Shown here one piece after another: positions 44,253 through 54,059 of a DNA stretch of 64,000 nucleotides. The notes beneath the pieces were generated by a model. The model ran no database searches, had not been told where the DNA came from, and saw only the letters and a list, made by a program, of their open reading frames with translations. Location of the stretch: positions 124,001 through 188,000 of the forward strand of contig NZ_JAJAPW010000006.1 of assembly GCF_020523925.1 (NCBI RefSeq). Direction: 5' to 3'. The translations under genes were made by a program, and so were the position numbers. Source of the stretch: Neotamlana laminarinivorans. GTDB lineage: Bacteria; Bacteroidota; Bacteroidia; Flavobacteriales; Flavobacteriaceae. Position 1 is the first letter of the stretch, and each line of letters opens with the position of its first letter.

Positions 44253-45716
44253 ATGAAAAATTCATTTTTTAAACTCTCAATATTAACCTTAATGTCTGCC
44301 TTCATGTTTGTAGGCTGTAGTGATGATGATTATACTGCAACTGATACAGAAGAAGACGAAGATGAAACAACAGAAACAACAGTAAACAACTCAGACTTCA
44401 CAGTGGGTTTAATATATAAAACTGATGATGTTGCAGATGGATACACTCTGTTTTCTCCAATTAGAAGCACAAATACATATTTAATCGATAATTGTGGCGA
44501 CTTAGTGCAAACTTGGTCATCAGACTATACACCACAAGGTGTTTATATGCTAGAAAATGGACATATATTACGTTCGGCTACTTTAACAGCAGTCAATTCA
44601 GAGTTCGAATCTGCAGGAGGACAAACCGGCAGGGTGGAATTATTTAATACAGATGGCGATTTATATTGGTACTATGAATTTAATAGTGCAACAGAATTTA
44701 TGCACCATGATTTGGAGTACATTGAAAGTACAGGAACTGTAATGGTAATGGTTTGGGAAAAACATACCGTAGCAGAAGTAGAAGCAGCAGGACGGACTAA
44801 TGCAACTGCACTATGGAGTGAGAGAATTGTAGAAATAGATCCATCTACAGATGAGATTGTTTGGGAGTGGGATGCTTGGGATCATTTAGTACAAGATGAA
44901 AATCCAGATGAAGATAATTATGGTATATTGTCTGATAATCCACAATTATTAAATATTAATTATACATACGAAGCTTCAGATTACGAAGCAGATTGGTTAC
45001 ACATGAATGGTGTAGATTATAACGAAACCCTAGATCAAATTGTGGTAAGCAGCCGTAATTTTAGTGAATTCTTTATTATAGATCATTCAACTACAACTAC
45101 TGAAGCTGCATCACATTCTGGAGGTACTTATGGTAAAGGAGGCGATATACTGTACCGTTGGGGAAATCCGCAAACCTATGATATGGGAGATGATAGCGAT
45201 CAAAAACTTTTTGTACAGCATAATGCTAACTGGATAAATTCAGAATATCAAGATGGTGGCCAAATTATGGTTTTTAATAATCAAACAGGATATTATGAAG
45301 GTATAGATTATTCTACAATTGATGTTATAGATACCAATGTAAATACAGATGGTTCATATAGCTTAAATACAGATGGAACTTATGCGCCAACCGATTTTAC
45401 ATGGACTTATGAGGCAAATCCATCTACAGATTTTTACGCAGCAAATATTTCAGGTGCTCGTCGTTTATCTAACGGAAATACAATTATTTGCGAAGGAACA
45501 ACAGGAACATTCTTTGAGGTAGATTACGATGGAAATACCGTTTGGAAATACGTTAATCCAGTTGATGAAACAGGGGCAGTAGATCAATACAGTACACCAA
45601 GTAGAAACTTCGTGTTTCGTTGTGAAAAATATGAATCAGATTATGAAGGTCTAGCTTATTATACTTTAGAGTCTCAAGGTACTATTGAAAGTGGATCTGA
45701 TTATGAATGTGAATAA
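44253..45716 (+). CDS. Arylsulfotransferase-like lipoprotein (AssT family)
   Basis: The 487-residue lipoprotein (signal ending FMFVGC, Cys22) has an acidic Asp/Glu/Thr linker and then a beta-propeller-like body. Motifs suggest the arylsulfate sulfotransferase (ASST) family, which transfers sulfate between phenolic compounds: FMHHDLEYIESTGTVM, ADWLHMNGVDYNETLDQIVV, FVQHNANWI and GARRLSNGNTIICEGTTGTFF. Several His residues sit where the family's catalytic and substrate-binding His would be. It lies between two EF-hand lipoproteins with short spacers, so Ca2+ could matter; that is inference. Some proteins annotated ASST may not have that activity. Confidence 0.75.
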   Translation: MKNSFFKLSILTLMSAFMFVGCSDDDYTATDTEEDEDETTETTVNNSDFTVGLIYKTDDVADGYTLFSPIRSTNTYLIDNCGDLVQTWSSDYTPQGVYMLENGHILRSATLTAVNSEFESAGGQTGRVELFNTDGDLYWYYEFNSATEFMHHDLEYIESTGTVMVMVWEKHTVAEVEAAGRTNATALWSERIVEIDPSTDEIVWEWDAWDHLVQDENPDEDNYGILSDNPQLLNINYTYEASDYEADWLHMNGVDYNETLDQIVVSSRNFSEFFIIDHSTTTTEAASHSGGTYGKGGDILYRWGNPQTYDMGDDSDQKLFVQHNANWINSEYQDGGQIMVFNNQTGYYEGIDYSTIDVIDTNVNTDGSYSLNTDGTYAPTDFTWTYEANPSTDFYAANISGARRLSNGNTIICEGTTGTFFEVDYDGNTVWKYVNPVDETGAVDQYSTPSRNFVFRCEKYESDYEGLAYYTLESQGTIESGSDYECE

Positions 45717-45735
45717 TTTAAAAAGATTTATCAAT

Positions 45736-46116
45736 ATGAAAAATATAATAAAAACAAGTTTCCTGTTAATTGCTATAATTAGCTTAGTGTCTTGTGGTTC
45801 AAAGAAAAAGAAAGAAACGGAAACATCAACAGAAATTAAGCAAGAAATACCTTATAACGAAGCTCCAAGACAAGGAAGAGAAGAGGGAGGTCGCCCTGAA
45901 GGACCTCCAGATTTCTCTAAAATTATTGAAGATATGGATGCAAACAACGATGGTAAACTTGCAAAAACAGAAGTAGAAGGCCCTTTAGCTGAAGATTTTG
46001 ATACTATAGATACAGATGCAGATGGGTTTATTTCTGAAACAGAATTTGATAAAGCACCAAAACCTGAACCAAGAGGTGGCGGTAAACATGAAGGCGGCGA
46101 ACGTCCAGAAAGATAA
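45736..46116 (+). CDS. EF-hand lipoprotein (paralogue 2)
   Basis: I start at ATG 45736, because it opens a lipoprotein signal (MKNIIKTSFLLIAIISLVSC, Cys20); the frame extends upstream to 45685 inside the sulfotransferase gene. The 126-residue protein has two EF-hand loops, DANNDGKLAKTE and DTDADGFISETE, each with a canonical pattern. A Glu/Arg/Gly-rich segment precedes them, and the tail is Pro/Arg/Gly/His-rich (PRGGGKHEGGERPER). It shares the plan FSKIxEDMD...DTID with paralogue 1. It begins 19 nt after the sulfotransferase stop, so the three genes probably form one transcript. Confidence 0.85.
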   Translation: MKNIIKTSFLLIAIISLVSCGSKKKKETETSTEIKQEIPYNEAPRQGREEGGRPEGPPDFSKIIEDMDANNDGKLAKTEVEGPLAEDFDTIDTDADGFISETEFDKAPKPEPRGGGKHEGGERPER

Positions 46117-50397: not shown

Positions 50398-50955
50398 ATG
50401 AGTTTTGTAAAATTCCTTTTCAGTAAAACATTTTTAAAACAAATAGCATTAGCTGTACTTGTATTGGTAGTGCTTTGTATTATATTATTAAAATGGTTAA
50501 ATGTAACCACAAAACATGGCGATTTTGAAACGGTTCCTGATTTAAAAGGAAAATCAATAAGCGTAGCGCAGGTAGAGTTAGGTGATAATAATTTGGTTAT
50601 GCAAATTCAAGATTCTGCAAACTATAATCCGGATTACCCTAAGTTTTCTGTGATAGAGCAAGACCCAATTGCAGGGGCAAAAGTAAAAGAAAATAGAAAG
50701 ATATACATTACCCTAAACCCGTCGGGATACAGAAAAGTTAGAGTGCCAGATGGATTAATAGATAAAACGTTTAGGCAAGTAAAACCAACACTTGAAGCTT
50801 TAGGTTTTAAAATTGGAAAAATTAGTTATGTAGATAATTTAGGTAAAGATGTTGTTTTAAAATTATCGCATAAAGGAAAGCCTTTAGAGTCTGGTGAAAA
50901 ACTAGCAAAAACTTCGGTTATAGATTTAGTTCTTGGTAACGGAAACAGACCTTAA
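50398..50955 (+). CDS. PASTA-domain membrane protein
   Basis: The 185-residue protein has a basic start, one transmembrane helix (about 13-32) and then PASTA-type repeats facing the periplasm. Each contains a VPDLKGKSISVAQVELGD-like or VPDGLIDKTFRQVKPTLEA-like segment. PASTA domains bind beta-lactams and muropeptides in Gram-positive kinases, but no kinase domain is present here. It lies between ddl and rluD, a conserved Bacteroidota order, and is 3 nt from the rluD start. A structural or sensory cell-wall role is likely but unproven. Confidence 0.85.
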   Translation: MSFVKFLFSKTFLKQIALAVLVLVVLCIILLKWLNVTTKHGDFETVPDLKGKSISVAQVELGDNNLVMQIQDSANYNPDYPKFSVIEQDPIAGAKVKENRKIYITLNPSGYRKVRVPDGLIDKTFRQVKPTLEALGFKIGKISYVDNLGKDVVLKLSHKGKPLESGEKLAKTSVIDLVLGNGNRP

Positions 50956-52052: not shown

Positions 52053-52685
52053 TTATGGTTTTGTTTTAGAATCTTTAAGTTCTTTATTTAAGTGATCTAA
52101 GTAGATAATTCCATTTAAATGATCGATTTCATGCTGAAAAATCACAGCTACAAAACCTTCAATTGTTTCTGTTTTATGTTGCCCGTTTAAGGCATCGTAT
52201 TCAATGTCTATAATTTTTGATCTACTGTTTAAAGTTTCTTTTCTGTTAGGTATAGACAAGCAGCCCTCAGTAACCGTTTGTTTATCAGTAGAGTATTCTA
52301 TTATTTTAGGGTTTAAATAAACTTCAAAAGGTGTATTTTCCTTATCTAATCGTTGTACCCAAATAATGTTTTTTAAAACACCAACTTGCGGTGCAGCAAT
52401 GCCAACTCCTAAAGAGGTACTGTCTGTAACTGTGGCATAAAGGCGATTAACAAAAAGTTGTAAAGCTTCGTTTTTTGGTTCCGGATTAATGTAGCTACTT
52501 TTTTTTCGCAGAAGTAAAGAATCGGTTTTATTAGTAATTTTATATACACGCATTGGTGTGTTGCTTGTACCGGAGTTAATAAGTTTTAATTCTTTCTTTG
52601 AAAAGGCATTTTTAACAGAACTTTTGGCTATAGAGCAGGATGTTATAAGTAAAACAACTAATAAAGAGGCATAAATAGTTTTCAT
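52053..52685 (-). CDS. Peptide deformylase with an N-terminal lipoprotein signal
   Basis: Peptide deformylase (PDF) removes the formyl group from nascent proteins in the cytoplasm. The three diagnostic motifs are intact: GVGIAAPQ (93-100), EGCLS (140-144) and HEIDH (185-189), which supply the Cys and two His metal ligands and the catalytic Glu. The start at 52685 (ATG) opens MKTIYASLLVVLLITSCS, a textbook lipoprotein signal with Cys17, so the enzyme appears exported and lipidated. An upstream in-frame TTG at 52712 would add only nine residues. An ordinary cytoplasmic PDF should be encoded elsewhere. Its substrate outside the cytoplasm is unknown. Confidence 0.85.
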   Translation of the reverse strand: MKTIYASLLVVLLITSCSIAKSSVKNAFSKKELKLINSGTSNTPMRVYKITNKTDSLLLRKKSSYINPEPKNEALQLFVNRLYATVTDSTSLGVGIAAPQVGVLKNIIWVQRLDKENTPFEVYLNPKIIEYSTDKQTVTEGCLSIPNRKETLNSRSKIIDIEYDALNGQHKTETIEGFVAVIFQHEIDHLNGIIYLDHLNKELKDSKTKP

Positions 52686-52784
52686 AATTTTAGGGGAATT
52701 ATAATTAAACAATGCTATAACTTAGAGTAGTTATGTATTTAGGTAATATCGTTAATTGCAAGTCAAATATTTACGTATTGCAGT

Positions 52785-54059
52785 TTACCATTCGTTTATT
52801 CTATTAGAATCTAATTTAATAAAAATAAACAATAAAATGGTAAAAGCCCAAAGCCCTGATCCACCATAACTAAACATAGGTAAAGGAATGCCAATAGTTG
52901 GAATTAGCCCCATAACCATACCTATATTTACAAAAAAGTGAATAAAAATAATAGCAGCTACACTATAGCCATAAACCCGACTAAATTGCGATTTTTGTAA
53001 TTCGGCAAGATGCAATATTCTAAGTAAAAGTAAAACAAAAGTTACCACAACAAATGCACTGCCCAAAAAGCCCCATTCTTCTCCAACCGTGCTAAAAATA
53101 TAATCTGTGTGCTGTTCGGGTACAAATTTACCGGTGGTTCTTGTCCCTTCTAAAAAACCTTTGCCAGTAAGTCCTCCAGAACTAATGGCTTTTTCAGATT
53201 CATTTAAGTTATAGGCGAAGGTTTTTTTCATCGCTTCTAGTTTATTAGGGTCTTTTTCTAGGCGTAACCATAAACTAATACGTTCTTGTTGGTGTGGTTG
53301 AAGTATGCTTTGGTAAAAGAATTTTACGCCAAAAGCTATTGAAATAGCAGCAATAATTAAAAATACAGATTGGTAAATTCGAATATGTTTTTTATTGAAG
53401 TAATGAATGCCAATTATAATTACCGTAGAAATAACAGAAGTAATAATAAATCCAAATTTTAAAGATAAAATAGCTAAAATTAAAGTTGAAAAAGCAGTGG
53501 TTAAGTAGACGTTAGGTAAGCCTTCGCGAAAAAGAACATAAATAAATGCACCATAAACTATGGTGCTTCCTGTATCGTTTTGTAATAATACTAAAATAGC
53601 GGGAATACCAATAATGGCAAATGTGCGTAACTGGTCTTTAAATGTTTTAATATTAGTATTTAAGTCGCTTAAATGTTTTGCAACAGCAAGAGCTGTAGCG
53701 CTTTTGGCAAATTCGCTTGGTTGAATGGTAAAACTACCAATGCCATACCACGAAGTGGCGCCGTTAACGTTTTTACCAAATAAAAAGAGACCAACCAAAC
53801 TTAACATGGATATAATATAAATAATACTTGCAAAGCGTTCATAAAACTTAGCGTCAATAGCTAAAACTAAAACAATTAGAATCAGATTTAGAAATATAAA
53901 AACGAATTGTTTGCCATAAGGTTGGCTTAAATCGAAATAATTTATATCTGCACCAATATGAGATGCTGATAAAATATTAAGCCAACCAAACCCAACTAGT
54001 AGCAAGAAAAGAAAAATTGTAATCCAGTCGAATTTAAAATGTTTATTTGTTACTCTCAA
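52785..54059 (-). CDS. rodA: Rod-shape SEDS glycosyltransferase RodA
   Basis: RodA is the SEDS-family peptidoglycan glycosyltransferase of the elongasome, acting with PBP2. The 424 residues give about ten transmembrane helices. Family features include NGATSWYGIGSFTIQPSEFAK and the late GIPLPMFSYGGSGLWAFT. The start appears to be TTG at 54059, 2 nt after the mrdA stop, with no ATG nearby; this suggests translational coupling. It is the last gene of the mreBCD-mrdA-rodA operon. Confidence 0.95.
   Translation of the reverse strand: MRVTNKHFKFDWITIFLFLLLVGFGWLNILSASHIGADINYFDLSQPYGKQFVFIFLNLILIVLVLAIDAKFYERFASIIYIISMLSLVGLFLFGKNVNGATSWYGIGSFTIQPSEFAKSATALAVAKHLSDLNTNIKTFKDQLRTFAIIGIPAILVLLQNDTGSTIVYGAFIYVLFREGLPNVYLTTAFSTLILAILSLKFGFIITSVISTVIIIGIHYFNKKHIRIYQSVFLIIAAISIAFGVKFFYQSILQPHQQERISLWLRLEKDPNKLEAMKKTFAYNLNESEKAISSGGLTGKGFLEGTRTTGKFVPEQHTDYIFSTVGEEWGFLGSAFVVVTFVLLLLRILHLAELQKSQFSRVYGYSVAAIIFIHFFVNIGMVMGLIPTIGIPLPMFSYGGSGLWAFTILLFIFIKLDSNRINEW

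Follow-up and report, generated by a model that had tools for sequence, protein, structure and literature searches.

A predicted lipid-anchored, periplasm-facing peptide deformylase of Neotamlana laminarinivorans and its exported relatives in Bacteroidota

Described deformylases and assignment of the protein

Deformylation is regarded as a cytoplasmic step on the side of the ribosome. Peptide deformylase (PDF, product of def) binds ribosomal protein L22 by means of its C-terminal helix, as stated in a passage of PMC8712518. A planctomycete Def was found in a different cell fraction from that of Escherichia coli Def according to a passage of PMC8567305, in which export is not mentioned. The genomes of Bacteroidota also hold non-exported second PDFs, one group of the MAVLEVIKMGNP type (L144–L149) and another of the type of L153–L155; these are likewise extra to the main def gene, show no visible signal and no R-x-D-K motif, and are placed on separate tree branches. 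Acylpeptidyl oligopeptidase (AOP) of Porphyromonas gingivalis is a Bacteroidota enzyme coping with N-terminally blocked peptides, and its likeness to the protein described here is in role only: passages of PMC8048996 describe an S9 serine peptidase, of a family unrelated to PDF, that releases acylated di- and tripeptides, and a title cited there terms it periplasmic. No account of a PDF that is secreted, periplasmic, otherwise exported or a lipoprotein was found in the searched subset of PMC, outside which most subscription papers lie.

The window, that is, the whole stretch of DNA analysed, comprises 64,000 nucleotides of contig NZ_JAJAPW010000006.1 of Neotamlana laminarinivorans. The PDF gene (52053..52685, minus strand) runs from an ATG at 52685 to a stop at 52053 and encodes 210 amino acids; a TTG upstream, at 52712, extends the frame by just 9 amino acids. 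The product scored 127.8 bits against PF01327 of Pfam (cut-off 22.8) and 121.8 bits against the equivalog model TIGR00079 (cut-off 103.95), and the PF01327 match, in agreement with the fold comparison, delimits a PDF domain at residues 49–202 (52080..52541, minus strand). A first-pass annotation had reported three intact PDF motifs, and all of them are present on the minus strand: GVGIAAPQ at residues 93–100 (52386..52409), EGCLS at residues 140–144 (52254..52268), with the metal ligand Cys142, and QHEIDH at residues 184–189 (52119..52136), with the metal ligands His185 and His189 and the catalytic Glu186. The GxGxAAxQ, EGCLS and QHExDH signatures and the Cys/His/His ligand set of the PDF family are thus found in the sequence, and the motifs were followed in a 56-row alignment that combines the window protein with 55 of its exported relatives and omits 25 of the 80 named loci.

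The same alignment was the input for an AlphaFold2 model of the protein, with pLDDT 93.0 and pTM 0.85. PDFs were the best structural matches to this predicted model in Foldseek, consistent with a PDF fold. The best match in VIA-align was 6jf3 (Z 23.1, rmsd 1.2, 145 residues aligned on the predicted model), of the Class I type b PDF group of Acinetobacter baumannii, which is about 33% identical; its chains align from about model residue 40–43 and have no counterpart to the signal and linker. Most of the PDF chains listed start aligning at model residue 40–45, so the first approximately 40 residues (signal 1–16, Cys17 and linker) appear to be an addition. The best sequence match was 2okl (Peptide deformylase 2), which we take to be from Bacillus cereus. 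Cytoplasmic Def of E. coli (b3287), 28% identical, shares the fold, the three motifs, the metal ligands and the equivalent of Arg155, and differs in having no front signal, lipobox or linker. Unlike cytoplasmic Def, the exported protein has no basic tail after HExDH, carries R-x-D-K and coexists with an ordinary def. Protease-like moonlighting, which the first-pass annotation had entertained, finds no support, the catalytic motifs and Arg155 (56/56 alignment rows) being PDF-like.

Judged from sequence, the enzyme type and the export of the 210-residue protein are well supported, and we have fair confidence in both; its activity would be deformylation, with formyl-Met N-termini as the probable substrate. 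The curated models label exported PDFs simply as peptide deformylase, so in public genomes they likely go under the bare name def.

Export signal, start site and companion genes

A predicted signal peptide, kept in relatives, occupies residues 1–16 (MKTIYASLLVVLLITS; 52638..52685, minus strand). The N-terminus MKTIYASLLVVLLITSC reads as that of a lipoprotein, with a positive n-region (MK), a hydrophobic core and the lipobox LITSC17, and Ser follows the Cys. Cys17 (52635..52637, minus strand), the predicted lipidation site and mature +1 residue, is present in 27/27 aligned orthologues and in 46/56 rows of the wider alignment. After Cys17 the stretch FSxEExxLI...PMRVxKI is conserved in the 27 orthologues. 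The linker, residues 18–44 (SIAKSSVKNAFSKKELKLINSGTSNTP, with conserved FSxxExxLI; 52554..52634, minus strand), showed dN 0.15 and dS 1.08 (dN/dS 0.14, purifying selection) against L033 of Tamlana sedimentorum, which is 80% identical, so that the region before the PDF domain is both translated and constrained. Signal peptides drift in sequence, and residues 1–17 alone gave dN 0.29 and dS 0.14 over too few sites to interpret; the selection argument therefore rests on residues 18–44.

A hydrophobic 9-mer with a Kyte-Doolittle mean of at least 2.0 lies near the start of 108/109 exported-clade ORFs and in 0/30 ordinary Defs from carrier genomes (highest value 1.68), one start-picking rule that favours a signal having been applied to exported and ordinary sequences alike. 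As ordinary Defs we used the 30 best-scoring PDFs with recovered loci in carrier genomes, and L030, with a broken N-terminal part, is not among the 109 ORFs of the signal and motif counts. The signal is apparently absent in one member of the exported clade, L064 (Myroides phaeus). The first-pass annotation had taken the protein for an exported lipoprotein, to be compared with other signal-bearing homologues; this comparison, the predicted signal, the conservation of Cys17 in all 27 orthologues and the constrained linker agree with it. The signal exceeds what chance would give and does not stem from a wrongly assigned start. A start downstream of the signal, which would have spoken against export, is disfavoured by the invariant Cys17 and the constraint on residues 18–44.

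One form of such a start would give dual localisation: Met1 would yield the lipoprotein, and Met45, at the point where the ordinary enzymes start, a cytoplasmic PDF. Model residue 43 pairs with the first residue of E. coli PDF, residue 45 is Met in 48/56 rows, and of the 29 loci in which the site was found (it has no counterpart in the broken L030) 28 encode it by ATG and one by TTG. The remaining 8/56 rows have Leu or Phe, however, as at a buried hydrophobic site, purifying selection acts on residues 18–44 with an invariant Ile36 upstream of Met45, and the shorter product would be a PDF domain without the basic tail found in all 30 ordinary Defs. We therefore consider dual localisation highly improbable.

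Surface lipoproteins of Bacteroidota carry an acidic run directly after the Cys (LES rule), according to a passage of PMC5080379. Positions +2 to +6 of the window protein are S-I-A-K-S, without an acidic run. Across 78 lipoprotein rows, acidic residues at +2 to +6 numbered none in 69, one in 8 and two in 1, in a lipobox count that omitted L064 and L075 and for which the Cys of L014, L032, L034 and L111 was placed manually. A Cys within positions 13–30 occurs in 80 of 106 distinct exported-clade proteins; most of those without it look like substrates of signal peptidase I, such as Chryseobacterium MKKISFLFILFIGFINAQK, and the window's own clade has the lipoprotein-type signal. Because LES-type acidic residues are few and soluble members of the signal peptidase I type exist, the PDF probably faces the periplasm, and a periplasm-facing anchor is the likeliest arrangement.

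A second, cytoplasmic-type def, for which the first-pass annotation proposed a search of the genome, is present at G000:C59:524579-525070; it has no signal, begins MILPIVAYGDPVLRKK, and adjoins a gene read as RuvX-like. The PDF of the window is thus a second copy beside an ordinary def, and the objection that it might be the only def of the genome fails on sequence. Fmt and Lgt were found in the genome, and the family of LspA (signal peptidase II) gave two matches. At least one further PDF was found in 38/40 carrier genomes checked (picked from the best 80 named loci), and the two sole-PDF carriers (G207 and G216) are metagenome-assembled records. No exported Met aminopeptidase was found, both M24 proteins of the genome being without a signal, which argues against full N-terminal maturation outside the cytoplasm.

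Distribution and traits of the exported clade

Within the family of the window's organism, 31/199 genomes, including that of the window, have a match of at least 221 bits; the next match scores 82 bits, and three genomes gave no match at the limit used. At least 80 loci were found in named genomes, all with Bacteroidota-group titles except one 'uncultured bacterium'. In the phylum sample, with up to 8 candidates scored per genome, at least 10/395 genomes exceeded 200 bits, the next score (143 bits) belonging to a non-exported paralogue in the same place as L146. In the class sample, with 8 to 10 candidates scored per genome, at least 8/295 genomes passed E 1e-45. Family f2 of the phylum sample, with 7/8 genomes positive, is probably Weeksellaceae, by likeness to Chryseobacterium proteins. 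Collections of phages and plasmids gave 165 and 840 records, respectively, all below 60% identity, 15 listed records of each being considered; exported relatives may be among them. The exported PDF is widespread but patchy across Bacteroidota, and because of this patchiness (31/199 genomes of the family, at least 10/395 of the phylum sample) no general housekeeping need is visible.

Patchy presence would also suit a dead or decaying copy, and one relative, L030 (G049:C27:1424960-1425439), is a degraded exported PDF in which in-frame stops have destroyed the N-terminal part. Against decay, the whole window gene has dN 0.12 and dS 1.0 relative to its 80% identical relative L033, its catalytic residues are intact, and 30/31 family-level genes, the window's included, have open frames. 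A dead copy, already doubted in the first-pass annotation, is thus extremely improbable.

A single branch, with SH-aLRT 93 (below the tool's mark of 95), separated all 105 exported sequences from the other PDFs in a tree of 146; the tree was built by a quick method with a midpoint root and without the near-copies L003 (the window gene), L033, L035 and L042. The protein had been taken for a single oddity, and the tree and the named loci instead place it in one clade spread over Bacteroidota.

The motif R-x-D-K after motif 1 (residues 112–115, within QRLDK; 52341..52352, minus strand) was detected by a loose regular expression in 101/105 exported PDFs and 0/41 other PDFs. Every row of the 56-row alignment has Arg112, while 55 have Asp114 and 53 have Lys115. 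The tail after HExDH has a median length of 21 amino acids and a net charge of 0 in exported PDFs (n=107, the fusions L085 and L087 excluded), compared with 42 amino acids and +10 in ordinary Defs (n=30). The charge ranges are disjoint (-3 to +4 in exported PDFs versus +6 to +12 in ordinary Defs); ordinary tails measure 37–45 amino acids, and 4/107 exported tails reach the shortest ordinary length of 37. The window gene, with a tail of 21 amino acids and net charge +1, has no basic C-terminal extension, and it carries the export signal that ribosome-associated cytoplasmic Def lacks. Since PDF binds L22 through a C-terminal helix and the basic tail is absent, the exported branch would, by analogy, be without a ribosome anchor; the basic tail of Bacteroidota is itself a putative anchor by that analogy only.

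All three motif patterns were matched by 89/109 exported-clade ORFs, with Asp tolerated for Glu, Ala for Gly in motif 2 and Gly for Ala in motif 1. In 18/109, Asp replaces the metal Cys, and 2/109 (L085 and L087) deviate only by GVGLAAPQ versus GVGIAAPQ. Among the matches listed, 18/18 Weeksellaceae read EGDLS and have no Cys remaining in the domain (L073, L074, L076–L079, L081, L088–L091, L094, L095, L097, L098, L101, L105 and L109); these are 17 sequences titled Chryseobacterium or Weeksellaceae and one of Elizabethkingia miricola, and they form a clade of 18 in the tree. The f2 positives (L163–L169) are EGDLS in 7/7, all behind a signal-like start, and one resembles L073. The EGDLS members keep the other motifs, except for GVGIASPQ in L169. 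TIGR00079 (cut-off 103.95) was narrowly missed by L079 (100.7, the sole member of Weeksellaceae scored) and by the fusion L085 (97.6). The Cys-to-Asp change of ligand could suit an oxidising compartment, or it could mean altered activity; mutational work has reportedly been done on the metal-binding Cys of the E. coli enzyme. Cys depletion as a general mark of export was dropped, many members of the exported clade having at least two Cys.

Several architectures were observed in the clade. L085:6001-8292 and L087 (Bacteroidales) combine an exported PDF with a C-terminal zinc carboxypeptidase-like (M14) part, matching PF00246 in L085. A DUF1684 domain (PF07920) precedes the exported PDF in L082:5362-6582 (Sphingobacterium), L162 is similar, and L075 (Parapedobacter) has a short remnant that by sequence reading resembles the end of DUF1684. 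L068:5389-6531 is a tandem PDF in one signal-bearing chain, in which the first stretch has lost motif residues (QHAITH) and the second is intact.

Gene neighbourhood and proposed role

The gene immediately upstream of the PDF gene is rodA (52785..54059, minus strand), assigned from its ORF, profile matches and the contexts of relatives. The order mreB-mreC-mreD-pbp2-rodA-PDF was observed in ten contexts (the window, L033–L040 and L065) and was not seen in the others. The mreBCD-pbp2-rodA operon was considered as a functional clue and rejected, the order being confined to near relatives and read as lineage synteny. MreB near the Lutibacter loci L047 and L052 was dropped as well, since the clustered protein from L047 has, by sequence reading, a DnaK-like start. 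No Pfam family was present in more than two of the 91 neighbours taken from 48 selected loci, as judged from the 25 most frequent of 152 families.

These data bear on the alternative of a changed substrate, in which the protein would be an extracytoplasmic PDF-fold metallohydrolase with some other target, such as a different formamide, a peptide bond or an amide of the cell wall, or would serve as a decoy for PDF inhibitors such as actinonin. The clade-specific R-x-D-K, the replacement of the metal Cys by Asp throughout the listed Weeksellaceae and the seven f2 genomes, and the mre-pbp2-rodA adjacency in close relatives would all be compatible with it. The catalytic motifs, like Arg155, are those of a PDF, however, and the link to rodA is limited to near relatives; a changed substrate is regarded as improbable.

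The preferred reading, to which we assign a probability of roughly 0.6, is that the gene encodes a lipid-anchored, periplasm-facing deformylase whose substrates would be formyl-Met N-termini arriving in the periplasm, in line with the first-pass suggestion of an action on formylated peptides. It is favoured by the fold, the catalytic residues, the export signal, the second def and the missing basic tail; against it count the patchy range, the lack of an exported Met aminopeptidase and of a recurring neighbour family, the lost Cys ligand in Weeksellaceae, the near misses of TIGR00079 by L079 and L085 and the apparently signal-less L064. The precursor would be exported by Sec and processed at Cys17 by Lgt and LspA, and the linker of about 26 residues would space the PDF domain from the membrane. 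The usual PDF chemistry would apply, with the metal on Cys142, His185 and His189, Glu186 as the base, and the formyl group removed from formyl-Met. According to passages of Ranjan et al. 2017 (PMC5454389), SRP keeps its substrates from being deformylated, and membrane proteins of N-out topology likely stay formylated, with a role in bacteria that is not known. A need for a periplasmic deformylase is plausible because SRP blocks deformylation and N-out proteins probably arrive formylated. The likeliest sources of substrate would be N-out proteins of the inner membrane and signal peptides after their release, both shielded by SRP from the cytoplasmic PDF, as well as formyl-peptides out of lysed neighbours; ribosome-bound deformylation would be left to the other def.

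A narrower use of the same chemistry, on foreign substrates only, would be peptide feeding, with the PDF unblocking formyl-Met peptides from lysed bacteria for periplasmic exopeptidases. The fusions L085 and L087, in which an exported PDF is joined to a carboxypeptidase-like part, point in this direction, and patchy presence fits an accessory trait; AOP of P. gingivalis handles N-acylated peptides, which resist all DPPs according to a passage of PMC8048996. The two fusions are near-copies, though, and so probably reflect one event, no recurring peptidase was found in the 91 neighbours, and the predicted side is the periplasm, not the cell surface. S46 dipeptidyl peptidases occurred in 6/25 carriers versus 11/25 non-carriers (Fisher p 0.23), in a comparison for which 25 carriers (out of 31) and an equal number of non-carriers were hand-picked from high-completeness genomes. 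Feeding as the sole function is possible, and we consider it unlikely.

Extended to the whole branch, the preferred reading of a periplasmic deformylase leads to a tentative and somewhat doubtful proposal: Bacteroidota may own a second, extracytoplasmic deformylation compartment, in which exported PDFs, anchored or free, would finish or salvage the formyl-Met N-termini of SRP-targeted N-out proteins and of signal peptides, Weeksellaceae having swapped the oxidation-prone Cys ligand for Asp. A natural exported deformylase would be a direct tool on retained formyl groups, by deletion and readout of N-termini, and the exported branch offers PDFs without a basic tail and a natural set of Cys-to-Asp metal sites. 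Such an enzyme might also explain a lower shedding of formyl-peptides by some Bacteroidota, should this occur.

Two further products encoded in the window are recorded here. The ORF at 50398-50955 (plus strand), upstream of a gene for an RluA-family pseudouridine synthase, encodes a free-standing protein that has a hydrophobic stretch at its N-terminus, two PASTA matches and no kinase. By sequence reading, the product of the ORF at 45685-46116 (plus strand) is small, is predicted to be a lipoprotein (LVSCGSKKKK) and carries an EF-hand-like acidic repeat.
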